Program-made: the position numbers and the translations under genes | The notes under the pieces: generated by a model | Seen by the model: the letters and a program-made list of their open reading frames with translations, nothing else | What the model was told of the DNA's origin: nothing | Database searches by the model: none | Part shown: in pieces, positions 24,340-49,273 of the stretch | Layout: every line of letters starts with the position of its first letter | Position numbering within the stretch: the first letter of the stretch is position 1 | Assembly (NCBI GenBank): GCA_034440575.1 | Contig: JAOTOL010001567.1 | Location: 1,039,001-1,103,000 of the forward strand | Origin: Imbricaverruca yamaguchii | Lineage: Eukaryota > Arthropoda > Thecostraca > Neoverrucidae | Direction of reading: 5' to 3' | Length of the DNA: 64,000 nucleotides

Positions 24340-24690
24340 GCCGGCGCCTCAGACCATCGCGAGACCCTGGCGAGCGCTTCAGACCACTGCGAGACCCCGG
24401 CGGGCGCCTCAGGCTACTGCGAGACCCCGGCGAGCGCCTCAGGCCACTGCGAGACCCCGGCGAGCGCCTCAGACAACTGCGAGACCACGGCGGGCGCCTC
24501 AGGCCACTGAGAGACCCCGACGGGCTCCTCAGACCACTGAGATACCCCGGCGGCTCCTCAGACAACTGCGAGACGCCGGCGGACTCCTCAGACCGCTGCG
24601 AAACTCCGGAGGGCGCCTCAGGTCACGAGACCCCGGCGGGCGCCTCAGGCCACTGCGAGACCCCGACGGGCGCCTCAGGCCACGCGCAGC
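24340..24690 (-). repeat. About 30-bp minisatellite starting at the PBLD stop codon
   Basis: On minus the unit reads GTGGCCTGAGGCGCC then GGGGTCTCGCA. The first copy is the PBLD end itself (CGCGTGGCCTGA at 24675-24686), so the repeat was seeded by the last codons plus stop. About 11 imperfect copies run into the 3' flank. Confidence 0.88.
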
Positions 24691-24998
24691 CGGCCTCTGA
24701 GCACCACGGTGGCCTGTCCGGCCACCAGGGTCCTGCCTGCGGCCCACTGCACCTCGACAGTGAGCAGACCGCCCCGGGCCGAACACTGCCGGGCCGACAG
24801 ACGGTCAGAGTGCAGCCGACGCGCCCAGTAGGGCGCCAGCACCGTGTGTGCCGAGCCGGTCACCGGGTCCTCGGCGATGCCCACCCACGGCGCGAAGTAG
24901 CGGCTGACGAAGTGGACCGCGGTGCCGGCGAGGAGGGTGACGATGATGCCGCGCACCTCGCTGCCGTCGTGCAGCCGCGTCAGCTGACCGAGGTCCGG
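24675..24998 (-). CDS. PBLD: PBLD exon 3 (residues 183-289, stop)
   Basis: Acceptor GTGTCGTCCCCAG|CCGGACCTC. Contains RGIIVTLL, SRYFAPWVGIAEDPVTGSAH, CSARGGLLTVEV and the terminal LRGRLRVA followed by TGA. Upstream, the acceptor plus the first 21 exon bases recur as 40-bp copies; downstream, the stop region recurs as 30-bp copies. Confidence 0.93.
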   Translation of the reverse strand, partial: PDLGQLTRLHDGSEVRGIIVTLLAGTAVHFVSRYFAPWVGIAEDPVTGSAHTVLAPYWARRLHSDRLSARQCSARGGLLTVEVQWAAGRTLVAGQATVVLRGRLRVA

Positions 24999-27807
24999 CT
25001 GGGGACGACACGGAACGTCAGCTGACTCACATCCACGGTGGGAAACACGGAACGTCAGCTGACTCACATCCACGGCTGGGGACGACACGAACGTCAGCTG
25101 ACTCACATCCACGGCTGGGGACGACACGGAACGTCAGCTGACTCACATCCACGGCTGGGGACGACACGGAACGTCAGCTGACTCATCCACGGCTGGAACA
25201 TCAGCTGACTGGCCCATCATGCTGGCAGTCTTGGCATTCTAGGCAGCTAGCTCATATTCGCAACAGTTGATCGTTACTTCACACTCCTTGAACTGCTCAA
25301 TGACCACCGGAAACTGTCCCTACTGCTGGGTACTCGTCCTAATTTGCTACAGGTGCTCAATGGTCACATGGAACTGCTCCAACTGCTGGACGGATGCCTG
25401 GAGTTGTTCCAGGTGCCGGACTGTTGCCTGGAGCTGCCGGAGTTACATGGAGCTGCTCAAGCTGCTGGACGGCTACCTGGAGCTGTTGGACGGTTATCTT
25501 CAGGTGTCGGGCGGTTATCTGACCTGGCGGACGTCCGCGCTCCAGCTCCTGACGTTATCTGGAGCATCTGCCGGACAGTTACCTGGAGCTGCTCCAGCTC
25601 CCTGACCGTTGTCTGGAGCTGCTCATCTGCCGAGCAGTTACCTGCAGCTGCTCAAGCTGCTGGACGGCTACCTGGAGCTGTTGGACGGTTATCTTCAGGT
25701 GTCGGGCGGTTATCTGAACCTGCTGGACGGTTACCTGGCGCTGCTCCAGCTGCCTGACGGTTATCTGGAGCTGCCGGACGGTCATCTGGAGATGCAGGAC
25801 GGTTACCTGTAGTTGCTCCAGCTCCCTGACCGTTGTCTGGAGCTGCTCATCTGCCGGACAGTTACCTGCAGCTGCTCCAGCTGCTGGACGGTGCAGGAGT
25901 CGGCCAGCCTCAGCAGCAGTTTGCCGGTCGCCGGCGACAGCTGAGTGTCCGCCAGCGGCAGGCCGCCGCAGACGGCGTCGATCAGGACGCCGAAGCGGTC
26001 GGCCGGCACCGGCTGCGGCACGTTCAGCGGCAGGTCCAGCACGATGGTGTCGCCCTGCCGCCGCGCCGACAGCTCCACGCCCCAGCGGGTGACGAACGTC
26101 AGCTTGGGAGACGTGTTGCCGAGCACCTGTGCACGATACGGGATGTACGCGAAAGTTGGCCCGCCTCCTTGATTGTTCAGCTTGCTGGAGCATCGGCCCG
26201 CATTGGCATTGTCATATTCTGGGAAAATGTGTGTGGCGTGGCTTCACGCGCTTGCCTTTGGGAGAGCCCCCGGCTGGAAGGTTCCGGTGGCAACTGATCC
26301 AGTAAGGACGGCGCATACCGTAAGACCAGCGGGAAGTCCCTGCATGAGTTGTTAGTCTGGTGGTGTGCGAGCCGTGTCCCTGTCTCGGTCCTTCCCACCC
26401 CGCTCGTACTCCCGTCGTTGTCACTGCTCCTTCTGCCGCGACTTTCCCCACCAATCTCCGCGCTGCACTGTACAGAGGCGGGTCCAGCGGCCGGCTTTGG
26501 ACGCCGGAATTAGCCAAGGTGCCCAATGCTGTCTAACACTGCCAACAATTTAACCCCCAGGTTGTCATGACAACCTCGTCCGATTCCATTGCACATGCCA
26601 GAGGAGACGCATCACAGCAAACCTCAAAATGACGATGGGCGAAAAGAATGATGTGCGGCTCCAAACGTGGCAAGTATTTCGCTCAAGCTGGCCGGTTTTG
26701 GGAGGCGTGGCTTAATTTGGCCCTTGGATCCACCAGCGTTCCGTGGCCTCGGCCACACCCACCTTGAAGAGGATAGCAACTCCGGCCACACCCACCTTGA
26801 AGAGGACAGCGGCCCCGGCCACACCCACCTTGAATAGGACAGCAGCCCCGGACACACCCACCTTGAAGAGGACAGCAACTCCGGCTACACACACCCACCT
26901 TGAAGAGGACAGCAACCCCGGCCACACCACCTTGAAGAGGACAGCAACCCCGGCCACACCCACCTTGAAGAGGACAGCAACCCGGACACACCCACCTTGA
27001 AGAGGACAGCAACCCCGGCCACACCCACCTTGAAGAGGACAGCAACCCCGGCCACACCCACCTTGAAGAGGACAGCAACCCCGGCCACACCCACCTTGAA
27101 GAGGACAGCAACCCCGGCCACACCCACCTTGAAGAGGACAGCGCCCCGGCCACACCCACCTTGAGGAGGACAGCGGCCCCGGCCACACCCACCTTGAAGA
27201 GGACAGCAGCCCCGGCCACACCCACCTTGAAGAGGACAGCAGCCCCGGCCACACCCACCTTGAAGAGGACAGCAACCCCGGCCACACCCACCTTGAAGAG
27301 GACAGCAACCCCGGCCACACCCACCTTGAAGAGGACAGCAACCCCGGCCACACCCACCTTGAAGAGGACAGCAACCCCGGCCACACCCACCTTGAAGAGG
27401 ACAGCAACTCCGGCCACGCCCACCTTGAAAAGGACAGCAGCCCCGGCCACACCCACCTTGAAGAGGACAGCAACCCCGGCCACACCCACCTTGAAGAGGA
27501 CAGCAACTCCGGCCACACCCACCTTGAAGAGGACAGCGGCGGCGGCCAGCGTGCCGTGGCCACACAGCTGCACCTCCGTGGTGGGCGTGAACCAGCGCAG
27601 CGAGAACCGGTCGGCGGTGTCGAAGGCGTCGGCGGCGCACAGCCGCGTCACGAACGCCGTCTCCGAGTGGTTCATCTGGGCGGCGACGCCGCGCAGCAGC
27701 GCGTCCGCCTCCTGCTCCTGCAGCAGGCACACGGACGCCGGGTTGCCGCCGAACGGCTCGGCCGTGAACGAGTTGACGGTGAAGATCTCCAGCTGGCGGC
27801 CCTCCAT
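24675..27807 (-). CDS. PBLD: PBLD: phenazine biosynthesis-like domain protein (PhzF superfamily), complete, 3 exons
   Basis: Exons at 27807-27523, 26126-25866 and 24998-24675 (minus), all phase 0: 285+261+324 bp, giving 289 residues, the size of animal PBLD proteins. Seen: MEGRQLEIFTVNSF start; GGNPASVCLL (20-29); NHSETAF (46-52) with Glu49 at the position of the PhzF catalytic glutamate; RWFTPTTEVQLCGHGTLA (71-88); IVLDLP in exon 2; SRYFAPWVGIAEDPVTGSAH (214-233), the second half-site; ends VVLRGRLRVA. The family has the diaminopimelate-epimerase fold and is thought to be an isomerase; the animal substrate is not settled. Probably cytosolic, since no signal or membrane segment is seen. The ATG at 27807 is chosen because upstream in-frame text is repeat-derived. 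Odd: both introns and the 3' flank carry minisatellites made of copies of the adjoining exon edge. Confidence 0.93.
24978..25205 (-). repeat. 40-bp minisatellite duplicating the PBLD intron 2 acceptor
   Basis: About five units with, on minus, GTGTCGTCCCCAG|CCGTGGATG...GTCAGCTGACG. The real exon edge reads GTGTCGTCCCCAG|CCGGACCTCGGTCAGCTGACG. Each unit therefore offers a further 3' splice site. Confidence 0.9.
25285..25890 (-). repeat. Degenerate minisatellite duplicating the PBLD intron 2 donor
   Basis: Imperfect units of about 24-36 bp. On minus they read like the end of exon 2 plus donor (CAGCTGGAGCAGCTGCAG then GTAACTGTCC). The exon frame stays open deep into the intron as QLEQLQVTVRQ-like repeats. 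Copies are more diverged than in the intron 1 array, suggesting an older expansion. Confidence 0.85.
25866..26126 (-). CDS. PBLD: PBLD exon 2 (residues 96-182)
   Basis: Acceptor CGTGCACAG|GTGCTCGGC; ends GAGCAGCTGCAG|GTAACT. It encodes the inter-domain part (LTFVTRWGVELSARR, IVLDLPLNVPQP, LSPATGKLLLRLAD). Downstream in the intron the exon tail and its donor recur as imperfect tandem copies. Confidence 0.92.
26165..26742 (-). other. Distal part of PBLD intron 1
   Basis: No repeat array and no other gene. It contains a perfect 18-bp palindrome, AGGTTGTCATGACAACCT, at 26559-26576. The acceptor region of exon 2 lacks the edge duplication seen at other PBLD junctions. Confidence 0.5.
26743..27535 (-). 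repeat. 33-bp minisatellite duplicating the PBLD intron 1 donor
   Basis: About 24 copies. On minus each has GCTGTCCTCTTCAAG|GTGGGTGTGGCC, the exact end of exon 1 plus its 5' splice site. The period is 11 codons, so the exon frame runs on as repeats of AVLFKVGVAGV until units with small deletions shift it. The copy nearest the exon is the functional edge. Confidence 0.93.
27523..27807 (-). CDS. PBLD: PBLD exon 1 (residues 1-95)
   Basis: Begins at ATG 27807 and ends CTCTTCAAG|GTGGGT, donor GT at 27522-27521. It carries the first half of the PhzF active site (NHSETAF, FTPTTEVQLCGHGTL). The frame stays open past the donor because the intron starts with in-frame 33-bp copies of the exon end. Confidence 0.93.
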
Positions 27808-27837
27808 GGTGAAACGAACGGCTGGAAATCTGCCGGG

Positions 27838-28075
27838 GAAGCTCATAAGATCTACTTTCAGAAGGTCTACGTTCAGAAGATCTACCTTCAGAAGCCCTAT
27901 TTTCACGAGATCTACTCTCGGGTCTGAGTGTTCAGAAAATCTACTCCAAATTCTGAATGTTCAGAAGGTCTACAAATCGTCCTTGGCTGTTCAGAAGATC
28001 TGCAAATAGGCCTAACATGTTCAGAAGATCTACCCACAATCCAAATGTTCAGAAGATCTACTGAGATCTTGTGAG
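27838..28075 (-). repeat. Degenerate repeat just upstream of the PBLD start
   Basis: Irregular copies of GTAGATCTTCTGAAC (minus) start about 30 bp before the ATG and cover the likely 5' UTR or promoter. They put in-frame codons before the start, so they matter for start choice. Confidence 0.75.
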
Positions 28076-28139
28076 TCTGACCCCAATCTGCCGGCCCGCG
28101 TCAGGTGAACACTGGCCGGAAGTGGGCATCGGGAACCGG

Positions 28140-29530
28140 CTCACTGGCGTTGCGAAACGTCGTGATCTGTGATATTCTGTGACCAGTGTCATGATCTGTA
28201 GTCAGAGTTGTGATCTGTGCCCAGAGTCGTAGTCTGTAGTAAGAATAGTGAGCTGTAGTCAGAGCCAGAGTCAGTAATGCATCCCACTACATTCAGCACA
28301 CGTTGTTTCCAACTTGACTGAATTGTTGCGGTACGCGCCAATGATTGTGTGATGACAATTTACCCAGGTGTCCCCCCTACCCTACCCCCACCCTCAGTAT
28401 ATTCGAGAAAATGAAAAATCAAACAATTTGAGCTGTGGCCTTTCGCCATTCAATGGATTCGCCTCTTACCGTTGCATACTGTGGCAAGCCGTGACCATTG
28501 GCCACTGCAATGGGTTCGCCTCCCCTCCCCACCTCTCCCCGGCATACGACTCCGACTACAGATCACGACTCTGACTATATATCAAGACTATGACTACATA
28601 TTACGACTCTGACTACATATCACGACTCTGACTGCATATCACGACTCTGACTACATATCACGACTCTGACTACATATCACGACTCTGACTATAGATCAGG
28701 ACTCTGGCTATATATCACGACTGTGGCTACAGATCACGACTATAGATCAGGACTATAGCTACAGATCACGACTATAGATCACGACTCTGGCTATATATCA
28801 CGACTCTGGCTACAGATCACGACTATATCGACTATAGATCAGACTCTGACTACCGATCACGACTCTGACTACATATCAAGACTCTGAGTACAGATCACAA
28901 CTATGGCTACATATAACGACTCTGACTACATATCACGACTCTGACTACATATCACGACTCTGACTACATATCACGACTCTGACTACATATCACGACTCTG
29001 ACTACATATCACGACTCTGACTACATATCACGACTCTGACTACATATCTGACTCTGACTACATATCACGACTCTGACTACATATCACGACTCTGACTACA
29101 TTACACGACGACTCTGACTACATATGACTCTGACTACAATCACGACTCTGACTACGACTCTGACTACATATCACGACTCTGACTACATATCACGACTCTG
29201 ACTACAGATCACGACTCTGGCTACATATCACGACTCTGACTACAGATCACGACTCTGACTACAGATCACGACTATCACGACTCTGACTATAGATCACGAC
29301 TATATATCAGGACTCTGGCTACAGATCACGACTATAGATCACGACTATAGATCAGGACTCTGACTACAGATCACGACTATAGATCACGACTATAGATCAG
29401 GACTCTGACTACAGATCACGACTATAGATCACGACTATAGATCAGGACTCTGGCTACAGATCACGACTCTGGCTAGAGATCACGACTCTGGCTAGAGATC
29501 ACGACTCTGGCTATAGATCACAACTCTGGC
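28140..29530. repeat. Diverged minisatellite (about 19-20 bp), orientation reversed at left end
   Basis: From about 28550 to 29530 the plus strand shows CACGACTCTGACTACATAT and variants. At 28185-28270 the related text is in reverse complement (TGATCTGTAGTCAGAGT). The stretch between holds no recognised gene. The array lies upstream of PBLD. Confidence 0.85.
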
Positions 29531-29774
29531 TACAGGCGGTGTACCACGGAGCAGTACGTACCGTGCCGTGCCGAGTAGTACAGTGGTCACGCTCCGTGAC
29601 GGGAGGGGGAGGGGCTGGGCGGCTGGAGCCAGGTCTCGGCTGCCAGTCGGCCGTCCTCGGCAGACCCGGGCCAGGCGCGCCAAATCAGTGGCGCGCCCAG
29701 GAGTCGGACCGATGGTGCAGCTTCGTTTGCGCCGGGGCGGTGCTCAACAGCCCGGCTCTGTCTGGTTGGTCCCA

Positions 29775-30616
29775 TTACCCGCGCCGTCTTTCCGGTCAGA
29801 TCCTCACACCCCGTCTCGGGGGGGGGGGGGGGGGGGGGGGTTAGTAACCCCCCTCTAAAATCCAAACTAAGCATCGCACGAAAACGAAAGAGGTGTCATC
29901 GGAAAGCGCTCGACGAGTAGGGTCCGTGTCCACCCCCCAAAACAGTTTCCCCCAAAAGTGACGTCACCAGGGGGGGGGCTAGATTTTCACGACTTTCCAC
30001 GACTTACATCATGCTTTTGGCTCTGGGGATTCATTTTTGGGGATGTATGAAAAGCAAAATTCATTTGGAATGAGAAAAGGACAGCGAAATCGACCAGGGC
30101 TATAATTTTTCCCGCAGAAATAATTTTTTTTAATTGAATATTTTTGAGTTTCCAAGTTTTCTTTAATTTCCTTTTCCAATGAGTAGAGCAGACCGAGAAA
30201 CGTTGTTGGAAGTCAACTTGCCCTAATAAGAAAATGCTGACTTTAGCCAGAATCATCTATTTCAACTGCAATTTGGCAAATACGCCAAATTTATATGTTG
30301 TCAAAAACTAAAAAAATCAAGTCCTACGTTTTGTAGCATCTCTAAAGATAAGCAAACGCTGAAAGTTTCATTAAAATATCTGTATCCGTTAAACCGTGAC
30401 GACTGATTGAACATTTTCGGAGGTGACCTCACTTGACCTTGACTAACTCGTTGAACCTAGATGACCTGACTTCAAAATTTTTGAAACAGCATGCCAAATT
30501 GATGTGGAAAAAGGTATGCCAAAGTTGGGCGCACTGCCGGCGCCGTTCGTCCGCTATCCGCGGAAAAACCTGAGGGGCGGGTTGAAGACCCCCCCCCCCG
30601 AGACGGGACGGGTTAA
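29775..30616. mobile_element. TTAA-bounded MITE-like element, copy 2
   Basis: Same element as 19631-20468, with ACGGGACGGGTTAA at the right end. The left end has lost one A (TTACCCGCGCCGT), and the inner G-run near 29820 is longer. The interior is similar throughout, for example GAAAGAGGTGTCATCGGAAA. Confidence 0.7.
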
Positions 30617-30619
30617 GCG

Positions 30620-31595
30620 CTGGGTCTGACGCCGTGCGAAGCTTGTCCGGCGTCGTTAAGTTAAGCGCTTGGTCTTTGCCCTGCAAAGCTTCGAGACAGG
30701 CCTCAGAATTTCTAGCAAACGTCGTCAGCTCACGGAACTCTTGTTAGCTCTTCGGTGACTGTTCACCCCTCAGTGTTTCGCCCTTTCCTCAGGAGCAGGA
30801 CCTGCTCTAACGTGTTTACTAGGTGGGAGTCGTCCTACCTAGTGCAGTGAAATCCCACCTAGTGAGCGAAAAGTCCCACCTTTCAAAGGGTGTTTCAATG
30901 GAGAAAATAGTGAAAGAAACTGTCTGATATCTCTGGTAGCGTAAGTTTATTGCCATGAACGATGCATCGTTTTTAAGAAGAAAATAACAGTAGCAAGTTG
31001 GCAGCACTACTGAGATCAAAGCACGAACAAAGCTCAAATGTGAATTGCTTCAATGGGAAAAGTTCATGCTACAAAGCCAGCAATTATATTAACCAATCAT
31101 ATAGACCCAATTATAACTACATAGAACCAATTGCTGGTGGAATATCCGGATACAATACGCGGAAAAGAACTCACACATTTATGTTTGACATTGCGCCAAC
31201 TGATCTGCTACAACCCTAACTGCCTTTGAAAAGTGAGATCTATGCCATTTTCTTGAAGACTAAGGCAGTCTTAACCCTGTCCAGTGCTACATTGCCTACT
31301 AATAAATAAATGGCTTGCGAAATAAAACATGCTGCCCTTGCTTTATCGGATACGTCCAGCGTTCTTCAAAGCGCTAGCCGTGTGCGAACCAATGTTGTGA
31401 ATGAGTGAGAGATGGTGGTGAAGATCGAACGACTATCTAAAACACACAGGAATCTGTCTAAACGGAAAACGGTCACGTACAACAAGAGGTGATGCAAGTT
31501 TCAGGACAACAAACAAAGGCTCCAAATGGACGAGCTCTTTGACATTACATATTGCCGGTGAAAGATCATGGACGAGCAGCGCTGAGTCTGTCCCC
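30620..31595. other. No gene recognised
   Basis: AT-rich intergenic sequence with short frames only. Left part has a short duplicated phrase (TTAAGCGCTGGGTCT / TTAAGCGCTTGGTCT). Confidence 0.5.
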
Positions 31596-31599
31596 TGGG

Positions 31600-32335
31600 C
31601 AGACTCAGATGGGTGACAGACTCAGGGGTGTGACAGACTCAGGGGTGTGACAGACTCAGGGATGTGACAGACTCAGGGGTGTGACAGACTCAGGGATGTG
31701 ACAGACTCAGGGATGTGACAGACTCAGGGATGTGACAGACTCAGGGATGTGACAGACTCAGGGATGTGACAGACTCAGGGGTGTGACAGACTCAGGGGTG
31801 TGACAGACTCAGGGGTGTGACAGACTCAGGGATGTGACAGACTCAGGGGTGTGACAGACTCAGGGAGGTGACAGACTCAGGAATGTGACAGACTCAGGGA
31901 TGTGACAGACTCAGGGGTGTGACAGACTCAGGGATGTGACAGACTCAGAGGGTGACAGACTCAGGGGTGTGACAGACTCAGGGGTGTGACAGACTCAGGG
32001 GTGTGACAGACTCAGGGATGTGACAGACTCAGGGGTGTGACAGACTCAGGGGTGTGACAGACTCAGGGGTGTGACAGACTCAGATGGTGACAGATTCAGA
32101 TGGTGGCAGACTCAGGGTTGTGACAGACTCAGGGGTGTGACAGACTCAGGGGTGTGACAGACTCAGGGATGTGACAGACTCAGGGATGTGACAGACTCAG
32201 GGATGTGACAGACTCAGGGTTGTGACAGACTCAGGGGTGTGACGGACTCAGGGGTGTGACAGACTCAGGGAGGTGACAAACTCAGGTATGTGATATACTC
32301 AGGGAGGTGACAGACTCAGGAATGTGACAGATCTC
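31600..32335. repeat. 17-bp minisatellite
   Basis: About 43 tandem copies of TGTGACAGACTCAGGGG with A/G variants at the last bases. The 17-bp period keeps no long frame open. Confidence 0.95.
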
Positions 32336-32486
32336 TCACATCCCTGCGGGATGGGCAGTTCCTGTGTGGCCAGAAAAACGAGGGATGCCTTCATATAAGT
32401 CCAGTCGTGGATACCTCTGGTACGAGATGCCTTCAAGCGAGACCGGCCTCTGATGGCGATCAGAGGTACGCTGGTTCCGAATTAAA

Positions 32487-33160
32487 CGGGCCGCGATCGC
32501 TCAACGTCCACGACCGCAACGTCAACGGCAGCGACCACAACAGCACAGGACAGCGCCAGTGCAGACGAGGTACCGAGTGATTCAGACCTTGCGACCAGCA
32601 CTGGCGGCAAGTCAGCGTTCGTGGCCGACTCTGAGGTCAGTGCCGGTGCCAAGTCAGCATCCATGGCCGACTCTGAGGTCAGTACCGGTGTCAAGTCAGC
32701 ATCCATGGCCGACTCTGAGGCCAGTACCGGTGTCAAGTCAGCATCCATGGCCGACTCTGAGGCCAGTACCGGTGCCAAGTCAGCATCCATGGCCGACTCT
32801 GAGGCCAGTACCGGTGCCAAGTCAGCATCCATGGCCGACTCTGAGGCCAGTACCGGTGCCAAGTCAGCATCCACGGCCGACTCTGAGGTCAGTACCGGTG
32901 TCAAGTCAGCATCCAAGGCCGACTCTGAGGCCAGTACCGGTGTCAAGTCAGCATCCATGGCTGACTCTGAGGTCAGTACCGGTGTCAAGTCAGCATCCAA
33001 GGCCGACTCTGAGGCCAGTACCGGTGTCAAGTCAGCATCCAAGGCCGACTCTGAGGCCAGTACCGGTGTCAAGTCAGCATCCATGGCCGACTCTGAGGCC
33101 AGTGCCGGTGTCAAGTCAGCATCCAAGGCCAATGCCGACGCAGTAGCTGCCGCTGAGTGA
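32487..33160 (+). CDS. Open frame over 48-bp minisatellite; possible exon edge, unresolved
   Basis: The frame opens after a TAA at 32484 with Ser/Thr-rich text (STSTTATSTAATTTAQDSAS), then about ten 16-residue repeats (KSASMADSEVSTGV), and stops at 33160. The minus strand is equally open (DADLTPVLASESAM repeats, 33243-32482). On plus, several units carry GACTCTGAG|GTCAGT, which resembles a donor, and a strong acceptor (CCACCCCCTCACAG) ends at 33190. This could be a real exon whose donor was amplified, as in PBLD. No family is recognised and no upstream acceptor is convincing. Confidence 0.3.
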
Positions 33161-33199
33161 CTGTTCTCTCTGCCCCCCACCCCCTCACAGCGAGCCGCA

Positions 33200-34660: not shown

Positions 34661-34674
34661 GACTTACTTTGACA

Positions 34675-34905: not shown

Positions 34906-34984
34906 TGACAGGCTATGCTTCTTCGCATTTTTGGAGGATTTGGTTCCCCTTTGGAAAATCCTGGCTGCGCGAATTTTTCTCACG

Positions 34985-38885: not shown

Positions 38886-39119
38886 CAAAAAATGCTACGA
38901 TTACCGGCGTTTTTTTTTCAGTTGTACTGAATCATGATGATGCAAAATTGATACATACATATAATGAAACATCTATATTGCATCCCTTCGTGTCACCCTG
39001 ACATTTCATGTTCCATACCACATATCACCAGTCATGAATGACTAAAGCAGAGCTAGTGATTATCACACGGATCCATCCGATGTACAACTTCTAAGGATTG
39101 GCATGTGATAACTGATCAT

Positions 39120-39246
39120 GCGGTACCGACCGTGAGGTACCGACCATGAGGTACCAACCATGAGGTACGGACCACGAGGTACCGACCATGAGGTACCAAC
39201 CATGAGGTACCAACCATGAGGTACCGACCACGAGGTACCGACCATG
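39120..39246. repeat. 14-bp minisatellite
   Basis: Copies of ACCGACCATGAGGT and ACCAACCATGAGGT. It abuts a truncated SINE-B copy. Confidence 0.9.
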
Positions 39247-39249
39247 ATT

Positions 39250-39345
39250 AACCTGTCGCTACTCTTCGCCCGCGACTAATCGGCGTGAGAGTTCGGCGAC
39301 GCTGCACGACTCAACGGTCGACGTGTCGCAAAGCCAGCAGTCACC
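39250..39345 (+). mobile_element. 5'-truncated SINE-B copy
   Basis: Starts within the SINE-B head (CCTGTCGCTACTCTTCGCCC) and continues through the body to the GTCGCAAAGCCAGC tail. Confidence 0.75.
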
Positions 39346-39582
39346 ACTGGGTTGGTGCCGTGTTCCCACGTACGCCACTGGCGGCGTCATACCCAGTCTC
39401 CAGAAGCATTGCTCCACCGTCGAATGCCTTGTTGGAGTCGACATCACCGGCAGGTTGCCGCACCCGTCACGAGACTGTGCTGTTCGTGCTGTTGGTGTCA
39501 TTGGAGATGCTGTTGCTGCTTGCTGCCGTCGATGCCGTCCCCAACATCGGCGTTCACACAAATCTCGCTCCTAAATTTCCCG

Positions 39583-39709
39583 TCTCACAATCGAAAGAGT
39601 GTGGGTTCGAGTCTCACCTGCCGCTACTCTTTGCCGCGACCAATCGGCGCGAGAGATTGGCGACGCTACATGGCTCCACGGTCGACGTGTCTCAAAAACC
39701 AACAACAAA
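39583..39709 (+). mobile_element. 5'-truncated SINE-B copy
   Basis: Contains the B box (GTGGGTTCGAGTCTCACC), the body and an AAAACCAACAAC tail. The first part of the tRNA-like head is missing. Confidence 0.8.
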
Positions 39710-40031
39710 TATCGCTCCCCACGCCATTTCGGCACCCGCCACCGCTCCTCCTCCTGCCCCCCCCCCCCACCTTCCGCGTAAACGTTCAGCCCAGAGGTCA
39801 ATAGTTGCTGATGTTTGTCGCCCACGAAATATCAGGTGGACACCTTTTCAAGCAGGTCAGATGTGCCCTACCCTTGAACGGAGAGTGGTCAGCTTTCTGA
39901 AACTGAATGGCACCTCCAGACCCCAGCAAGAAAGATCGGTCTGAAGCCCTCTCGCCCGTGATCCGGAATCGGTGGCGTCGTTTTGCTCTCGTGCATGTTT
40001 CCTCGAGAAAAGCAAACCTGCCGTCTGAACG

Positions 40032-40459
40032 CTACTGGCCCGTCGACGACTCATCGATCGTGGCGACAGACGTGTGGTTCGCCTCGCCGCCTGGGCTCGC
40101 GTCGACGCCGCCGCTGACCCGACGGCCGACGCGGCGTCGATGCAGGCTGACCCGCCACCTGACCAGCGCCCACGTGGCGGCGTGCAGCACCGCCGTCGCC
40201 AGGACCGAGCCGGCCGTCACGCCCAGCGTCATGCCGGGCCGCGCCCAGTCCAGGACGGGGTAGATGGCGGTGCCGCCGCCGATCGGGTTCAGCCCGCCGC
40301 ACAGGTAGTAGACGACGGTGAAGAGGATGTAGGCGATGCCGAAGCCCAGCGGGAAGACGGCGTGGTAGAGCCGGCGCGGCGTGGCGTGCACGCACAGGTC
40401 GACCAGCGTGTACAGCGTCGTCAGCAGGTGCAGATGGAGGTCCGAGTACGTCACGGACC
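40032..40459 (-). CDS. Rolling stone-like exon 4 (residues 143-284, stop)
   Basis: Acceptor GTGTCCGACAG|GGTCCG. It encodes YSDLHLHLLTTLYTLVDL through IYPVLDWARPGMTLGV and a basic tail (RRRVGRR). About 31 bases near its 5' edge recur, with a few changes, just upstream in the intron (40478-40508). Confidence 0.9.
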
Positions 40460-43400
40460 CTGTCGGACACGGTGACGTCAGCAGGTGCAGCTGGACGTCT
40501 CAGTACTGTAGTAGGTGAGCTGGACGTCTCGATCGATCTCGCGCGGCACACACGTGCTCGTGGCAGGACAGGGCAGCGTAAGGGCCGCAGCCAACAACCG
40601 TAGGACGAGCGCGAGTCCTTTTATCGTCGCCAAGCCAAAAACGCAGTTCCGCCACTGACGTCACCGTGTTCCACACGTGACGTCACGGACCCGTGACGAT
40701 TTTTCGGTTTCGGTTATCGTTGGTTGGTTATCGGGCTTTCCCACAGGGTCATGGGTCCGTGACGTCACGTGTATAAACATGACACATGTCTGTAGACATA
40801 AAAACATCAAGGCATAAAGACATAAAAGATTAGTGCAACTATGAGCCACAAGGGCCCTTCTTGGTTGCACTCTGGACACTCAATCAGTTGCCCACCAAAT
40901 CCGTTCATCAGCCTTCCCTGGAATACTAAAAAGCAAGCCCTCTATTCTTATGATTGTCTATGCTGTCTTTAAAGATGTTCGATGTGGAGAAATTGAATAG
41001 TGAAGGAATTGAATATGTTTTCACTTAGATATAGAAGGCTGAGAGGAGATCTCATCGAGGTCTTTAAATTTGTCAATGGCCTGGAGAGGGGATACCTTGG
41101 GTAAATGTTTGAATTTAACAGAAATGATGCAATTAGAGGTCATAAATTAAAAATTAAAGTTAACCACAGCAGAACAAGGTTAAAGCAAACTTTCTTCACC
41201 AACAGGGTAGTGGAACACTGGAACCAGCTGCCAGAAAACATCGTCAGTAGCAGCACATTGAACATCTTTAAAAACAGCATAGACAATCATTATAAGAATA
41301 GAGGGTTTGCTTTTCAGTATTACAGGGAGGGCTGATTGACATATTTGGTGGGAAACTGGTTCAGGGTACAGAGTGCAACCAAGAAGGGCCCTTGTGGCTC
41401 ATAGTTGCACTAATCTTTTATGTCTTTATGTCTTTATGTGCTGCTACTGACAATGAACAATGGACAGGGGAACACGCCGCACAAGTACATCAGCGTCACG
41501 AACATACTTACTATCGAGGTAGGAGAACACGCCGCACCAGTATATCAGCGTCACGAACGTACTTACTATCGAGGAAGGAGAACACGCCGTACCAGTATAT
41601 CAGCGTCACGAACGTACTTACTATCGAGGAAGGGGAACACGCCGCACCAGTACATCAGCGTCACGAACGTACTTACTATTGAGGAAGGGGAACACGCCGC
41701 ACCAGTACATCAGCGTCACGAACGTACTTACTATTGAGGAAGGGGAACACGCCGCACCAGTATATCAGCGTCACGAACGTACTTACTATTGAGGAAGAAC
41801 GCCGCACGAATAGCGTCACGAACGTACTTACTATTGAGGAAGGGGAACACGCCCCCATACATAGCTACGAACGTTTACTATTAGAACACGCCGCACCAGT
41901 AATCAGCGTCACGAACGTACTTACTATTGAGGAAGGGAACACGCGCAGTCTAGCGTCACGAACGTACTTACTATTGAGGAGGGGAACACGCCGCACCAGT
42001 ATATCAGGTACACGTACTTACTATTGAGGAAGGGGAACACGCCGCACCAGTATATCAGGTCACGAACGTACTTACTATTGAGGAAGGGGAACACGCCGCA
42101 CCAGTACATCAGCGTCACGAACGTACTTACTATTGAGGAAGGGGAACACGCCGCACCAGTACATCAGCGTCACGAACGTACTTACTATTGAGGAAGGGGA
42201 ACACGCCGCACCAGTACATCAGCGTCACGAACGTACTTACTATTGAGGAAGGGGAACACGCCGCACCAGTACATCAGCGTCACGAACGTACTTACTATCG
42301 AGGTAGGAGAACACGCCGTACCAGTACATCAGCGTCACGAACGTACTTACTATTGAGGAAGGGGAACACGCCGCACCAGTACATCAGCGTCACGAACGTA
42401 CTTACTATTGAGGAAGGGGAACACGCCGCACCAGTATATCAGCGTCACGAACGTACTTACTATTGAGGAAGGGGAACACGCCGCACCAGTATATCAGCGT
42501 CACGAACGTACTTACTATTGATAAAGGGGAACACGCCGCACCAGTACATGAGCGTCACGAACGTACTTACTATTGAGGAAGGGGAACACGCCGCACCAGT
42601 ATATCAGCGTCACGAACGTACTTACTATTGAGGAAGGGGAACACGCCGCACCAGTATATCAGCGTCACGAACGTACTTACTATTGATGAAGGGGAACACG
42701 CCGCACCAGTACATCAGCGTCACGAACGTACTTACTATTGAGGAAGGGGAACACGCCGCACCAGTATATAATAGCGTCACGAACGTACTTACTATTGAGG
42801 AAGGGGAACACGCCGCACCAGTACATCAGCGTCATGAACGTACTTACTATTGATGAAGGGGAACACGCCGCACCAGTACATCAGCGTCATGAACGTACTT
42901 ACTATTGAGGAAGGGGAACACGCCGCACCAGTACATCAGCGTCACGAACGTACTTACTATTGACGAAGGGGAACACGCCGCACCAGTACATCAGCGTCAC
43001 GAATGGCTCTGACGTATGAGACACGTTCACGGTGAACCAGTGCAGCATGCAGAGGCCTCTTGGAACCACCGGCTTCACGCCTGAAACCGTCCGCAGAGGT
43101 CAGACGGGTCAGCCTGGGTCGGTAGAGGTCAGCCTGGGTCAGTAGGCGTCGCCAGAGGTCAGTCGAGGTCAGCCAGGGTCGCATGATGTCAGCTGGGTCA
43201 GACGGGGCCAGCAGAGGTCGCCCTGGATCAGCTGGGGTCAACAGAGGTCAGCCAGGGTCACCTGATGTCAACTGAGTCAGACGGGGCTGCCCAGGGTGAG
43301 CCTGAGTCGGTAGTGGTCAGTCGGCGTCAAACTGGGTCAGCAGGGGTCAGCAGGGATCACCCGGGGTCAGTATGAATCAGTAGGGATAAGCATCTATCTA

Positions 43401-46400
43401 CCGATATGGATACTTATTATATTTTATTTGCCATATTTTACCTCGTTATCTTCAGAACAATCCGTGAGTCACGAACCAATGAAGCCCATAGCCGATGCAC
43501 ATCGCTGGTGGACATCGTTGTACTCCCGCAGCCATAAGGTCCAAGGTTCAAAGCGCGCCTGCTACTTTACATTTCGGCTGACCTGACCTGACCTGACCAG
43601 ACCAGGGGGTTGGCGGTCTTCCGCGGTACCCAACTCGTGGTCAGGCAGACACCAAGAAGTACACCTGACACTGCTATCGGTAAATTCACACGACTATTTA
43701 ATTTTGTAAACTATAGTGGACGTTATCTTAATATTCAACTGGTTAAATGTCAAAGTTCACCACTCGAATTGATGATATGCCTGCTTCGCGCTTGTATGAA
43801 CGCTGGAAGAGTCCGGTATCTTGCATCAATGTCACCCGCTATGTAAGCTGCTATGCTACCCTGGTCAAGTTCATCATTGAGTTGCCACTATACCATTGCT
43901 CTCCTACAGTCTCATGTAGCTCCCATGGCATCCCTTACCTCCAGATATTCCTGATATGTTTAAATTTGATGTTCTTTTTTGATGACTGCTGCTGCGTTGG
44001 GGTTGCCCAGAATCCTGCGCCGGTTTTCGCCGCCATGAGGATTAGGTTCTGCATTGGTCAAGTTCATCATTGGGCCACCAATATATCAACGCTTCAATGG
44101 TCCACTATGCTTGCTATTACGGGATACCCCACCTCGCGATATTCCTTGTGCTTTTGCTGTGCTCTAGGCAATACCTCCCCTCCCGCTTCAGTAGCCCAGC
44201 GTTCGCCTTTAGTCCTCTCTCCTGGCAAGGCGCTTTGTGTTGCGTCACTCCACACGCTCACATTATCCCGCTACCAGAATCAGTTGACAAATGACCCAAT
44301 AATGCCGAGGGCACTGCATCAAAGCGCCGCGTTCCAGCATTGGCAGCACGCCAAACTGTCGTTAGGCCGCTTCAGTGGATAATGCTGTTGCGGAGAGTCG
44401 TACTGAGCGTTGTTGCTTGCTTCCATACAGTTGAAATTTCTCCATTCGGTGGCGATATCATAGCGCACGCAGCAAACACTTCCTAGCGCGCGCTAGAAAT
44501 CAAGAAATCAAGAATGCAATCAAGAATTCCAGAAACCCAGCACGAACACACGGGGTCGAGTAGTCTAGGGGTAAGTTTCCCGTCTCATAATCGAAAGATT
44601 GTGGGTTCGAGTCTCACCTATCGCTACTCTTCGCCCGCGGCGAATCGGCGTGACAGATTGGCGACGCTGCGTGACTCAACGGTCGTTGTGTCGTAAAACC
44701 AATAACCAACCAACCAACCCGAACACACGATCCGTTTTTCTTCGTTTTAGTTGTCACCTTTCCGCAGCCGGTAGGCGGCCACCGCAGCTGACGCCAGCTG
44801 GACGCAGATGTCCGACATGGCGGTGAGGTAGGTCCAGTTGGTGAGGAAGACCAGGTAGTAGGCTCTGAGGCCTGGCGCCTGGTAGTCGGCGATCAGGTCC
44901 CAGATGAAGAAACCCCCGAAGTAGAGGAAGACCGCCAGTCGGTACAGCAGAAATGCCACGCTGACACTCTCTGCGTTCTGCCACTGTGGAGAAGACCAAG
45001 TTGATTCAGACATTACAAGTAGCTTTGGCTCGCAAACAGTGTCCAGAAAACGCCTACCTGTGGTCGTAGGTGCATTTCTTGCGGAAGCCTAAATATTACT
45101 AACAGTCCCATAATTTCACAATCATGTATTTTCGTCAACTCCTTTCGTAATAGAACCACCGGTTTTCAATGTTCGTCTCTAGAATTAAAACAAAACAAAA
45201 TTTGAGCATCGACATGACATCGACGCGTTTCTCCCGATGTAATTCTAAATTCGTCTAGATTCTCCAGGTCGGGGCAAGCCGAAATCCGCCTCTCCACTCG
45301 GTGCGTTATTCGCCGCAAACGAAACACGGCGCACAGCAGCGCGCCCAGACTTCGTACACCTTTTTCAATATCAATTCGGACGCTTTGAAACAGAAACCTG
45401 GAGTCAGGTCACTCAAGGTCACTGACCTATGGTTCGTTATGTGAGGTTGCGTCCAAAAATTGATGAATCACGCACTCCGGAATGCATACATTTTCATGAA
45501 CAGGCAGGAGATTGCTTATGTCAGAAGAATTAACAAAACTGCCATGTCAGATTTTTCGGAAGTTCGTTTTTGCACACGCCATTTTTCAGTATCGGCCTTC
45601 TGAGGCTAAGGTCACAAGCTTCACCTAAACCGTACACCTGAGATACAGCTCACTTGCTATAGGGAAATATTTATAGGTGTGATCTACCCACCAGATAAAA
45701 TAAACTGAAAGGAAAATTGAACACAAAACTTAATTTTTTCACGGAAAATTGAACTGTTTCGAACGTAAAATTTTCTAAATTGCAGTGTCATGAATTTTTT
45801 CTTCCTGGTTCAAGAATGCTTGTTATTCTATAAATCTTCAAGAACAGAAAAGAACAATTGCACGATATAAGGAGGAACGCAAAATCTGAAATCAGCAGTG
45901 CCCATAGTCCCACCGTTTGATGCAATTTGAAATAGTTTTGTGTTCTTCCGGTATCGTCACGTGCAGATCGACTGCACTTGTACTTTTTATCTGACAAAAA
46001 GTAAAACGGGGCGGGGATGGCCGAGTGGTTAAGGTGCCGGGCTATGGGTACCAATCCCGCGGCCCACCGGCGAAACAGTGTGGGCGGCGCCATTAGCCGT
46101 GAATATGCATAAAGTGTGTCGTGAACCAACCAATAAACAAACAAGACAAAAAGTAAAACGAAGCAAAGCGACGGAAAAGCAATTATTCTAACTCCTCGAT
46201 CTGGCGAAGGACGATCTGTGACTCGGCTGGGAGCAGGTTAAGTTATCGTCCAACTTAAGTGAACTTTGTGTTCAATGTAGTCAATAACGAGTCACATTTG
46301 CAGGCCGAAGACAAAGAATGTCGCATATGAAGACATGAGTGGCTCGAATACGACCAGGCTAGGATGGCGTTACTTAGGTTACGATATTTTGTGATGGCAC

Positions 46401-47130
46401 GCTATGTACAGTGCGATTTTGTCCTGGTGTGCAATAATGTTGTCATATGTGTCATGATACTTCATCACAATCATAAACTGGATTGTGATGTAGGATGTAC
46501 CTCGTGTTCGTAAGAAAATCATGCGACGCAGTTTGTGGGAAGGTGGAGTTCGTGATCAGCGTAGTAGTAAGCAGTTACGCAAATTGCGTTACGCCTATTA
46601 GGTTACATTACAATGTTGGAATAGGTTCATTTACAACACTTGATGTGGATGTTAGCCGTCGAGCGTAAGAAAACCTGACAGCAAGGACGAGCCATTCGCA
46701 AATGTGACGCTTGCATCAAAATGTATCCCAGAGCCACACAATGGCGGATCCAGAAGGCTGGTTTTCGATAGGCTTGGAAGGAGGCAACATTAATTTTTGT
46801 CCACGATTTAAAAAAAAACAATTCAGCTTTGAACAGCTAACTATCGATGGGTCCGGTTAAACAAATATTTCTGGGCTCCTCATCAAATGTTTCTGGATTA
46901 AAAAGCATTGTGTGGTGCAGAAATTGTGGAAAATCTGTGTTCGAATGGACCCAATGGGCAGGTCCACTTGTCCCACCGCCACCCACACCGTGGTATGCTT
47001 GGTGTTGTGTGACAAATGGCGCTGCTGCGAGGTAAGCGACAACGATAATTACCTGAGATGTGCCGAATTTGGTGGGGCTGCGGGGGCTCAACCAGAACTT
47101 CTCCCATTGCAGCTCCATGTGGCATCTCAT
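40032..47130 (-). CDS. Rolling stone-like multi-pass membrane protein, complete, 4 exons
   Basis: Exons (minus): 47130-47053, 44983-44758, 43080-42958 and 40459-40032, of 78+226+123+428 bp, giving 284 residues. Junction phases 0, 1 and 1 all agree. Seen: N-terminal QWEKFWLSPRSPTKFGTSQW; membrane segments near 33-53 and 68-97, then W116 to V141 with TLMYW, and two or more in exon 4; H151/H153 and DLCVHATPRRLYH; LGFGIAYILFTVVYYLCGG; and IYPVLDW. This order (FxxSQW, LLYR, FLTNW, TLxYW, H, D, P-R-H, YxxF-YY, IYxxLDW) is that of the Rolling stone family, named for the Drosophila myoblast-fusion gene. Its biochemical role is not known. Exon 3 lies at the edge of a 55-bp minisatellite and is easily missed. 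Confidence 0.9.
40673..40772. repeat. 25-bp inverted repeat with CRE and E-box in each arm
   Basis: Arms at 40673-40697 and 40748-40772 match at 24 of 25 positions. Each arm holds CACGTGACGTCAC, i.e. overlapping CACGTG and TGACGTCA. The spacer is 50 bp. It lies in the last rolling stone intron, 210 bp upstream of exon 4. Confidence 0.8.
40787..40985 (-). mobile_element. 3' end of CR1/L2-like LINE, minus copy
   Basis: Reverse complement of the LINE 3' end seen at 41255-41440 (CACAAGGGCCCTTCTTGGTT, AAAGACATAAAAG tail). It faces a plus copy that starts almost immediately, making a large inverted repeat. Confidence 0.85.
40990..41440 (+). mobile_element. 3' end of CR1/L2-like LINE, plus copy
   Basis: Encodes the last part of the RT protein (FEFNRNDAIRGHKLKIKVNH, VEHWNQLPENIVSSSTLNIF) and the 3' UTR with a TTTATGTC repeat tail. 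Same family as 57890-58580 and 59190-60447. Confidence 0.88.
41480..42980 (-). repeat. 55-bp minisatellite duplicating the rolling stone exon 3 donor
   Basis: About 27 copies. On minus each reads CGTGACGCTGATGTACTGG then the exon tail, then CAATA|GTAAGTACGTT, i.e. the end of exon 3 with its 5' splice site. With a 55-bp period the frame changes each unit, so minus frames alternate between YWCGVFPFLNSKYV and RDADVLVRRVP. The right-most copy (42958) is the true exon end. Copies near 41800-42050 have deletions. Confidence 0.95.
42958..43080 (-). CDS. Rolling stone-like exon 3 (residues 102-142), hidden at repeat edge
   Basis: Acceptor GACGGTTTCAG|GCGTGAAG; donor GTCAATA|GTAAGT; 123 bp, phase 1 at both ends. 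It encodes VKPVVPRGLCMLHWFTVNV then SEPFVTLMYWCGVFPFVN, supplying the W and YW membrane segment that exons 2 and 4 alone lack. The last 47 bases plus donor are the unit of the 55-bp array that follows in the intron. Confidence 0.88.
43085..43395 (-). repeat. Degenerate GGTCAGC(C/T)GGGTCAG repeat before rolling stone exon 3
   Basis: Irregular 10-24 bp phrases. On minus they give CTGACCTCTG-type pyrimidine-rich text leading into the acceptor at 43081, so the array forms the 3' end of the intron. Confidence 0.75.
43400..44510. other. Rolling stone intron 2, no other gene recognised
   Basis: A plus frame of 211 codons (43747-44382) is open but matches no family I know and lacks a clear start or splice context. 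Left part has a GACCTGACCTGACC microsatellite (43580-43600). Confidence 0.4.
44553..44719 (+). mobile_element. Full-length SINE-B copy with 10-bp target duplication
   Basis: Head (GTCGAGTAGTCTAGGGGTAA), B box (GTGGGTTCGAGTCTCACC), body and CCAATAACCAACCAACC tail. CGAACACACG flanks it at 44543-44552 and 44720-44729. It ends 38 bp from the donor of rolling stone exon 2. Confidence 0.9.
44758..44983 (-). CDS. Rolling stone-like exon 2 (residues 27-101)
   Basis: Acceptor CTTCTCCACAG|TGGCAG; donor CGGAAAG|GTGACA, phase 1. It carries the first two membrane segments (FLLYRLAVFLYFGGFFIWDL and YYLVFLTNWTYLTAM). No edge repeats flank this exon. Confidence 0.9.
45020..45990. other. Rolling stone intron 1, no other gene recognised
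   Basis: AT-rich with short frames only; part of the 2.07-kb intron between exons 1 and 2. Confidence 0.5.
46009..46144 (+). mobile_element. SINE-A copy lacking the B box, with perfect 16-bp target duplication
   Basis: Head and body are joined after an internal deletion of about 43 bp that removes the whole B box (GGGTACCA runs directly into ATCCCGCGGCC). It is flanked by GACAAAAAGTAAAACG at 45993-46008 and 46145-46160. Confidence 0.9.
47053..47130 (-). CDS. Rolling stone-like exon 1 (residues 1-26)
   Basis: ATG at 47130 in a good context (GGCACCATGAG); ends ACATCTCAG|GTAATT in phase 0. It encodes the cytoplasmic N-terminus through GTSQ, which joins WQNAE of exon 2 to make the family's SQW motif. 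A second ATG four codons later is a possible alternative start. Confidence 0.85.
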
Positions 47131-47149
47131 GGTGCCGGCTAGGGGTCGT

Positions 47150-47700
47150 TTCGGCGTTGATCCTTTATTTGTCCAGGATCGTTCCCGTGTTGGTCCTATA
47201 TTGGTCCGGTATCGTTTTGGCGTTGATCCTTTATTGGTCCGGTATCATTTCCGTGTTGATCCTTTATTGGTCCGGTATCGCTTCCGTGCTGGTCCTTTAG
47301 TGGTCCAGTATCGCTTCCGTGCTGGTCCAATATCGTTTCCGCGTTGATCCTTTATTGGTCCAGTATCGTTTTTGTGTTGGTCCTTTATTGGTTCGGTATC
47401 ATTTCCGTGTTGATCCTTTATTGGTCCGGTATCGCTTCCATGCTGGTCCTTTAGTGGTCCAGTATCGCTTCCGTGTTGGTCCTTTAGTGGTCCAGTATCG
47501 TTTCCGCGTTGATCCTTTATTGGTCCAGTATCGTTTTCGTGTTGGTCCTTTATTGGTCCGGTATCGTTTCCGTGTTGGTCCTTTATTGTTCCGGTGTCGT
47601 TTCCGTGTTGATCCTTTATTGGTCCGGTCTCATTTCCGTGTTGGTCCTTTACTGGTCCGGTATCGTTTCCGTGTTGGTCCTTTATTGGCCCGGTGTCGCT
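47150..47700. repeat. 33-bp minisatellite with an ATTGG/CCAAT box in most units
   Basis: About 16 copies of a unit like GTTGGTCCTTTATTGGTCCG followed by GTATCGTTTCC. It starts about 20 bp upstream of the rolling stone ATG. Read on minus, most units contain CCAAT (ACCAATAAAGG). Plus frames here (repeats of LVRYRFRV) are by-products of the period. Confidence 0.9.
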
Positions 47701-47844
47701 TCGGTATTGCGACCAGTCGGCTCTTGGGCAGGCCTTGGCTTCGCTATCGGTCCGTTCCGGTCACTCTGGCTCTGTTCCAACTGGCTGTTGGTACGACGTG
47801 TGTAGATGTGTACAAGGAGTACCTCCGGCTCACGGGGCGGTCAG

Positions 47845-47935
47845 CCAATCACAGAGGCGCTGGGTGAGTCAGTCAGCCAATCGGAGCGGCGCTGGCCCGG
47901 ATCGGTAGCCAATCACAGCGCCGCTCAACGATTCA
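47845..47935 (-). promoter_or_regulatory. Three CCAAT boxes at exactly 32-bp spacing
   Basis: GCCAATCACAG, GCCAATCGGAG and GCCAATCACAG, with CCAAT at 47845, 47877 and 47909, each followed by a GGCGCTG- or GCGCCGCT-like GC box. A TGAGTCA (AP-1-type) lies between the first two. This is about 0.7-0.8 kb upstream of the rolling stone start. Promoter function is inferred. Confidence 0.45.
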
Positions 47936-48242
47936 CGGGATCTGAAAGAACGCACACAAGTGATTTTGTACAATTTGGGCTTTATCTGTCTAGGCTGGAG
48001 AGAAATTCAACACGTGGGAGTTGTTGTGGTGCTATATGTCAGGTAGCTGCTGGGCAAATGCATGTAACCGCGTATCAACCCTGACTGGCACTAGTGATGA
48101 AGCCTCTGGGTCTTCCCTTTCTTTGGTTATCAGATTATTTTCGATTTATTTGAGATACATGATCTTCTGAATCCTTCCTTAAGATCAGAACTAAACTTGC
48201 AAATGTAGCATGGTAGTACATAGCATGGCGCTGCATGTCTAG

Positions 48243-48288
48243 GCATGACTCAACGGTCGATGTGTTGTAAAAACCAGTAACCAACCAG
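48243..48288 (+). mobile_element. SINE-B 3' fragment
   Basis: Only the last part of the body (CATGACTCAACGGTCGATGT) and the AACCAGTAACCAACCAGC tail remain, directly before the 42-bp array. Confidence 0.7.
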
Positions 48289-48349
48289 CTGAAGCTGAAA
48301 CCCACCACCTGGGGACGGACGTGGTCTTACCCTCCCACCTGAAGATCGC

Positions 48350-49200
48350 TTCCACACCCATCGGGCTGGACTCCACCTGACACCTGAAGGTGGTGATTCC
48401 CCTGAGCCAGGACTCCACCTGGCACCTGATGGTGGTGACTCTCTGAGCCAGGACTCCACCTGGCACCTGAAGGTGGTGACTCCCCTGAGCCAGGACTCCA
48501 CTTGGCACCTGAAGGTGGTGACTCCCTGAGCCAGGACTCCACCTGGCACCTGAAGGTGGTGACGCCCCTGAGCCAGGACTCCACCTGGCACCTGAAGGTG
48601 GTGACTCCCTGAGCCAGGACTCCACCTGGCACCTGAAGGTGGTGACTCCCCTGAGCCAGGACTCCACCTGGCACCTGATGGTGGTGACTCCCCTGAGCCA
48701 GGACTCCACCTGGCACCTGAAGGTGGTGACTCCCCTGAGCCAGGACTCCACCTGGCACCTGAAGGTGGTGACGCCCCTGAGCCAGGACTCCACCTGGCAC
48801 CTGAAGGTGGTGACTCCCCTGAGCCAGGACTCCACCTGGCACCTGAAGGTGGTGACTCCCCTGAGCCAGGACTCCACCTGGCACCTGAAGGTGGTGACTC
48901 CCCTGCGCCAGGACTCCACCTGGCACCTGGAAGGTGGTGACCCCCTGGCCAGGACTCCACCTGGCACCTGAAGGTGGTGACCCCCTGAGCCAGGACTCCA
49001 CCTGGCACCTGAAGGTGGTGACTCCCCTGCGCCAGGACTCCACCTGGCACCTGATGATGGTGACTCCCCTGAGCCAGGACTCCACCTGACACCTGATGGT
49101 GGTGACGCCCCTGCGCCAGGACTCCACCTGCAGCTGATGGTGGTGACTCCTGAGCCAGGACTCCACCTGGCACCTGAGGTGGTGACCCCTGGCCGACTCA
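48350..49200 (-). repeat. 42-bp minisatellite
   Basis: About 20 copies. On minus the unit reads GTCACCACCTTCAGGTGCCA then GGTGGAGTCCTGGCTCAGG. All three minus frames are open for about 300 codons because the unit has no stop and is 14 codons long. The right-most unit merges with the candidate exon edge at 49206-49230 (GTCACCACCTTCAATTG|GTAGG). Confidence 0.93.
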
Positions 49201-49205
49201 CCTAC

Positions 49206-49273
49206 CAATTGAAGGTGGTGACGTAATTGCCTTCCGCCGTTCTAATCGACCGCCCTGCGCACACCACGGCCAT
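49206..49273 (-). CDS. Candidate first coding exon of an unidentified gene
   Basis: ATG at 49273 in an excellent context (GTCACCATGGCC), 22 codons (MAVVCAGRSIRTAEGNYVTT then FN), then TTG|GTAGGTGAGT, where either GTAGGT or GTGAGT could be a donor. Its last bases match the 42-bp array unit, the same relation seen at PBLD and rolling stone donors. It does not fit the phase of rolling stone exon 1, so it would belong to another transcript. No family recognised. Confidence 0.3.

Follow-up and report, generated by a model that had tools for sequence, protein, structure and literature searches.

Minisatellites built from exon edges cross predicted splice junctions in the barnacle Imbricaverruca yamaguchii

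Exon-edge arrays in the PBLD-like and Rost-like genes

The window analysed here is a 64,000-nucleotide (nt) stretch from the barnacle Imbricaverruca yamaguchii (positions 1,039,001 to 1,103,000 of JAOTOL010001567.1, contig C1334 of a eukaryotic genome assembly of 767 Mb), and carries on its minus strand two genes, PBLD-like and rolling stone-like (Rost-like), at several of whose exon edges the edge itself is repeated in tandem (Table 1). The PBLD-like gene encodes a PhzC-PhzF domain and has its best relatives in two barnacles, Amphibalanus amphitrite (71% identity) and Pollicipes pollicipes (67%); the Rost-like gene has just two relatives at E 1e-10, P0121 (58%) and the Pollicipes protein P0122 (59%). 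All splice edges were predicted from homology, reading frame and site score, without RNA. The three PBLD exons are joined in phase 0 and yield a protein of 289 residues that aligns with Amphibalanus P0001 free of gaps across both exon junctions; exon 2, searched alone in Pfam and PDB, found no match. The Rost-like protein is partial, 5' exons being missing from the model, and aligns cleanly over both its junctions with P0122 and P0121. Since orthologue proteins align cleanly across them, the junctions named in the original prediction for this stretch, a reading of its letters that proposed exon-edge copies at six boundaries or more, are very probably splice sites.

Each junction was scored by how many positions of a 24-mer centred on it recur in tandem, with a cut-off of 18-20 out of 24 in later use. 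At PBLD donor 1 the repeat unit begins within the exon and may be parsed into 26 nt of exon plus 7 nt of intron, and tiling found AAG/GTGGG in 23 copies, counting the exon's own. The motif TGGCCG stands at both ends of this unit, with its first letter at -26 (exon) and at +8 (intron) relative to the donor, and we infer from this spacing of exactly 33 nt the kind of trace that slippage or short-homology repair would leave. The array is open in frame within an open reading frame (ORF) of 425 residues, and contains 21 further donors whose scores exceed that of the first or fall short of it by no more than 0.5 bits. By the same measure, just 2 further donors are present at PBLD donor 2, where the copies of CAG/GTAAC are degenerate and older-looking, and 26 at Rost-like donor 42958, where the unit consists of 46 exon nt plus GTAAGTACG and has a length not divisible by 3.

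The PBLD exon 3 acceptor (24998) is bordered by five tiled 40-bp units, four of them ending in CCCCAG, which repeat the AG plus ~21 exon nt, the exon part imperfectly; its ungapped score lies under the cut-off because the array copies differ by two bases in length. No exon-edge copy was found at PBLD acceptor 26126 (13/24), Rost-like donor 44758 (13/24, the nearest tandem stretch being ~26 nt away) or Rost-like acceptor 44983 (14/24), and the array beside acceptor 43080 stops 2 nt before the exon and holds no exon copy (13/24). Three Rost-like edges were placed 1-2 nt off their final coordinates in this test (44758 and 40459 by 2 nt, 44983 by 1 nt). Among the edges modelled in the two genes, arrays cross 3 of 4 donors and, less exactly, 1 of 5 acceptors, making four boundary-spanning arrays in the window, with that at acceptor 24998 imperfect. 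The six-boundary proposal is therefore upheld for PBLD donors 1 and 2 and the Rost-like donor, and imperfectly for the exon 3 acceptor; the array at the PBLD stop codon is real but involves no splice site, and the proposed 'acceptor 4' is weak, whether it refers to 43080 (13/24) or to 40459 (14/24). Tandem 24-mers make up 20.4% of the window compared to 0 in one shuffle, and the arrays are not due to chance.

The units at the window junctions are mutually unrelated and each, when tiled, matches its own exon edge. Because those at donor 2 and the exon 3 acceptor, which lie in one PBLD intron, are unrelated, the arrays represent independent events, one per junction, as had been proposed. The 55-bp unit, searched genome-wide with very common words skipped, matches only the Rost-like gene and an inverted duplicate of it (described below); the other units were compared within the window. 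The repeated edges at PBLD donors 1 and 2 and at the Rost-like donor are conserved coding sequence in other barnacles, and the exon is therefore the source of the array copies.

Table 1. Exons and tandem arrays of the PBLD-like and Rost-like genes, in window coordinates. TRF, Tandem Repeats Finder; fractions are junction scores.
Feature	Position	Strand	Basis
PBLD-like exon 1 (PhzC-PhzF domain, N-terminal part)	27523..27807	-	Pfam PF02567 E 1.1e-27; alignment to Amphibalanus P0001
33-bp array across PBLD donor 1	26750..27537	-	TRF 23.8 copies, 94%; tiling; 24/24
PBLD-like exon 2	25866..26126	-	joined without gaps to both neighbouring exons in alignment with P0001
~30-bp degenerate array across PBLD donor 2	25441..25889	-	TRF rows; tiling; 20/24
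40-bp array across PBLD exon 3 acceptor	24996..25196	-	TRF 5.2 copies, 92%; tiling; 17/24
PBLD-like exon 3	24678..24998, stop 24675-24677	-	PF02567 E 4.2e-17; PDB 1s7j E 1.5e-17
30-bp array from last codons and stop of PBLD	24327..24683	-	TRF 12 copies, 83%; 20/24
Rost-like exon without exon-edge copies	44758..44983	-	PF21534 E 0.0021 (below curated cut-off); alignment; edge test
~30-bp degenerate array beside acceptor 43080	43092..43287	-	TRF; near-edge, 2 nt from junction
Rost-like exon, 3' end repeated	42958..43080	-	ungapped joins with Pollicipes P0122 and P0121
55-bp array across Rost-like donor 42958	41466..43003	-	TRF 28.7 copies, 91%; 27 donor motifs; 23/24
Partial ~20-bp copy flanking Rost-like acceptor 40459, weak	40411..40500	-	sequence; 14/24, tested 2 nt off
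Rost-like last exon	40035..40459	-	PF21534 E 3.8e-12; alignment

Junction-spanning arrays in other genes and gene copies

Arrays that cross splice junctions are also present in three further gene families: myosin, CCT chaperonin and kinesin. For the first two, exons were taken with 1.5 kb of flank on each side, edges were called by reading frame and site score, and a 24-mer was counted as tandem if 19 of its 24 bases recur within 200 bp, low-complexity sequence being excluded. Out of 163 predicted edges (118 + 45), 12 in six loci were dropped before counting and 151 kept; the loci dropped were four presumed second copies (L051, L060, L066 and L069), the doubtful L053 and L009, an intronless open frame. 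This last locus (C1177:278919-280796) covers positions 3-646 of 679 of the myosin head in a single uninterrupted frame and differs in this from the other myosin matches listed, which suggests a retrocopy or a contaminating organism.

In the myosin and CCT genes, 7 of 74 donors and 3 of 77 acceptors have junction-spanning copies, with exon-interior windows at 0.000 and 0.013. A first pass on 106 of the edges gave 5/52 donors and 2/54 acceptors; a strict subset gives 6/54 and 1/51 (7 and 1 at 18/24), and a looser cut-off applied to the full set 9/74 versus 4/77 (p = 0.15). Clear cases are myosin L034, with a 39-bp TRF unit and 19 further donors by the same 0.5-bit criterion, and CCT L067, L068 (an acceptor) and L071. 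The kinesin set comprised 20 of the first 22 rows by E-value rank, two presumed second-copy rows having been skipped; 3 of its 20 donors have junction-spanning copies (L078, L079 and L091), and one, L077, has a poor donor score. Pooled over the three families, 10 of 94 donors are crossed.

Array length differs between gene copies. A second Rost-like gene is carried by the inverted duplicate (C1334:463305-476853, 13.5 kb, corresponding to 50167-33525 of the window, 16.6 kb; loci L039 and L040), whose main colinear pieces show ~83-96% identity. A palindromic contig was considered and rejected: in the 60 kb fetched, the colinear inverted copy above 350 bits is confined to these 13.5 kb and 16.6 kb. 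The Rost-like array has 28.7 units in the window versus 13.6 in the duplicate, two copies that may be alleles or paralogues, and a CCT locus and its second copy, which may be alleles, have 5 versus 6 acceptor-like motifs. The last two residues encoded by the repeated Rost-like exon are VN in the window copy and LD in the duplicate; CTCGATA, the LD-type sequence, is present among the array copies of the window, and in the duplicate was counted at the exon alone. Together, these sequences hint at exchange between array and exon. In the CCT loci L068 (C89) and L069 (C1012), which are 94% identical, a 76-bp array crosses the acceptor and extends ~47 nt into the exon.

Exon edges and the origin of the arrays

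The copies had been tentatively attributed to a process that starts at exon borders (R-loops, a paused polymerase or repair at splice sites), with minisatellites expected to be enriched at exon ends. The myosin and CCT edges were compared with 5105 pseudo-edges, that is, random intron positions from the same loci (up to 40 draws per edge, and so not independent), with intervals bootstrapped by edge; the flanks from which they were drawn may hold unknown exons. Between -60 and +100 nt an array is met at 23 of 74 donors (0.311), 23 of 77 acceptors (0.299) and 1541 of 5105 pseudo-edges (0.302), and every confidence interval (CI) of the difference between edges and pseudo-edges includes zero. Arrays are therefore no commoner around these edges than around random points in introns, the expected enrichment did not materialise in this sample, and a border-specific initiator is unnecessary; initiation at exon borders was accordingly dropped as the main cause. 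First array starts, counted outward, do crowd at the edges (for acceptors, 23 of 44 at -60 to +100 nt and 21 at +100 to +600 nt), which, taken alone, resembles what was predicted, but random intron positions also often lie in or near arrays.

Arrays are cut back at exons. Those starting 10-60 nt on the exon side have a frequency of 0.108 at donors and 0.052 at acceptors versus 0.199 at pseudo-edges (differences of -0.091, CI -0.168 to -0.002, and -0.147, CI -0.211 to -0.074, respectively), and the interval from -10 to +25 nt holds an array end at 0.068 of donors, 0.169 of acceptors and 0.039 of pseudo-edges. Where arrays end is thus as predicted by trimming through selection on exons. Relative to the intron interior, acceptor junctions are depleted (0.039 vs 0.146; interval of the difference -0.159 to -0.054) and donor junctions do not differ (0.095 vs 0.078; interval -0.044 to 0.090).

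We conclude, with a probability of about 0.75, that these are minisatellites of the type known in amphioxus as mirages, for which random tandem duplication together with selection on exons suffices. Short tandem duplications would occur in introns all over this genome, with slippage or short-homology repair as their probable origin, and some of the duplicated units would straddle a splice junction by chance. If the first donor is kept in use, the extra copies would be intronic and the protein unchanged, and the array could therefore grow by unequal exchange. Duplications that enter the exon or offer an earlier acceptor would be purged more often, and arrays would for this reason appear cut back at exon edges. 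The cut-back is apparently weaker at donors than at acceptors: a donor duplication would disturb neither the first donor nor any part of the exon, so that splicing may hide the remainder, and an acceptor duplication would place an earlier AG upstream, with the risk that the mRNA gains sequence. The acceptor depletion fits with donors being the more tolerant side, and the original suggestion that extra copies are tolerated because splicing hides them agrees with the data. Exon-edge repeats look more like the tolerated overflow of repeat-rich introns than the product of a special border process.

Several observations weigh against this conclusion. The difference between donors and acceptors in crossing (7/74 vs 3/77) is not significant by itself (p = 0.20); 2 of the 10 myosin and CCT positives, both in L062, are at doubtful edges; acceptor L023 has a poor site score (-3.5); and the edge calls in the sample rely on family matches plus site scores instead of RNA. 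Moreover, array coverage 24-120 nt inside donors is 0.150 versus 0.078 distally (CI of the difference 0.009 to 0.139; 0.173 vs 0.081 in the strict subset), 23 of 37 first array starts outward from donors fall at -60 to +100 nt and 14 at +100 to +600 nt, and all three kinesin donors that have an array no more than 120 nt away are crossed by that array. A mild bias of initiation towards donor edges would give these same near-donor signs and, since 3 of 4 modelled donors in the window are crossed, a process acting at exon edges, mainly donors, has something in its favour. Nevertheless, arrays at edges are not in excess of random intron positions, acceptors lack a near-edge coverage excess (0.151 vs 0.146), and the window had been singled out in the original prediction for being extreme; we therefore regard such a process as unlikely.

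The other explanations fare less well. That the arrays are coding, exons extending into them as repeat proteins or variable donor choice adding in-frame repeats, would suit PBLD donor 1, with its 33-bp unit open in frame and its many donors of like score; it appears very improbable given that barnacle orthologue P0001 has no extra residues at either PBLD junction, that the 10 additional residues of the Amphibalanus gene model P0034 at the donor 1 junction are not array-like, and that the 55-bp Rost-like unit would shift the frame while the Rost orthologues join cleanly. A mobile or satellite repeat that spreads and lands at splice sites, in the manner of introners, might be suspected from the many arrays adjoining many exons. 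It was dropped and we give it next to no credence, since the units at the window junctions are unrelated, every one matching the exon edge that it adjoins, as do those inspected in the wider sample, and the 55-bp unit, the only one searched genome-wide, is confined to one gene and its duplicate. Equally negligible, in our estimate, is an artefact of assembling tandem regions: long arrays are hard to assemble and copy numbers may be wrong, but the same junction structure recurs in two diverged Rost-like copies, in a CCT pair and in other genes.

Whether donor-straddling duplication is common enough in this barnacle, at 10 of 94 donors, to exert a standing mutational pressure on its genes is a further matter, and the proposition strikes us as unlikely. 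If it holds, arrays of at least 20 like donors would allow occasional use of a downstream donor, and exchange between array and exon would rewrite the last codons of the exon.

Other repeats are present in the window. An array at 48368-49222 has no known exon adjoining it. A 167-bp satellite occupies 54139-57201 as two arrays that meet near 54988, with consensus units apparently on opposite strands, and two short 23-bp arrays face each other as inverted repeats at 62606-62772. Dispersed, mutually related copies of tRNA-like appearance (GGTTCGAGTCTCACC) lie at 2554-2714, 7657-7815, 39572-39706, 44544-44712 and 62856-63012, and are probably a family of short interspersed nuclear elements; Rfam and ARAGORN (tRNA) scans of the window, these copies included, gave no match. 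On the plus strand, a single open frame of 1210 codons (9213-12845), partly composed of minisatellites with Gly/Ser-rich and GNQQGGFINGG-type repeats, possibly encodes a repeat protein.

Relation to known systems

The original prediction knew of no named system like this one. However, tandem repeats across exon-intron boundaries are described for amphioxus globin genes and were called 'mirages' in work on Adh3 (PMC3087553), and mirage minisatellites are also reported in PGBD5 and troponin C (PMC3902484); the globins concerned are BflGb6 and BflGb9. There, unit length varies by site, both boundaries are affected, splicing is apparently normal and a model of intron gain is put forward (PMC3087553); somatic instability is reported for the Adh3 mirages. 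The barnacle arrays share with them boundary-spanning tandem units, AG or GT in many copies and site-specific unit lengths (PMC3087553, PMC3902484). Each unit derives from the local exon edge, and array length differs between gene copies in the barnacle, as it does between haplotypes in amphioxus (PMC3087553, PMC3902484). A single family at many unrelated introns, as an introner or mobile element would produce, is not what the window junctions contain. Unlike the amphioxus mirages, those described here are in a barnacle, not a cephalochordate, reach ~24-29 copies in the window and are known from genome sequence alone; they also come with a density control, of which none appears in the available portions of the amphioxus accounts (PMC3087553, PMC3902484).

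Minisatellites at exon-intron boundaries are likewise described in human genes of segmental duplications, where units of ~30 bp vary between paralogues and can make novel introns (PMC2812944). The human cases were selected for their variation between recent primate paralogues, whereas the barnacle cases come from conserved families sampled regardless of duplication. Duplicated AG/GT segments are also the raw material where introns are gained through internal duplication of genes (Rogers 1989; Gao and Lynch 2009, both as cited in PMC3087553); in the barnacle, by contrast, the introns are already in place. The open-licence literature, barnacle genome papers included, gave no report of minisatellites in barnacle introns or at their splice sites, to the extent that its text was available.

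Altogether, our analyses argue for a known phenomenon, mirages, now in another phylum, with a control that favours tolerance over a border-specific process. They extend to a crustacean a phenomenon described in lancelets and, in related form, in duplicated human genes, and add a quantitative reading in which dense intronic minisatellites are cut back at exons and donors are apparently more tolerant than acceptors. Natural tandem arrays of ~20 like donors also make 5' splice-site choice and the drift of exon edges testable, in genes whose boundary-spanning repeats resemble those of amphioxus.

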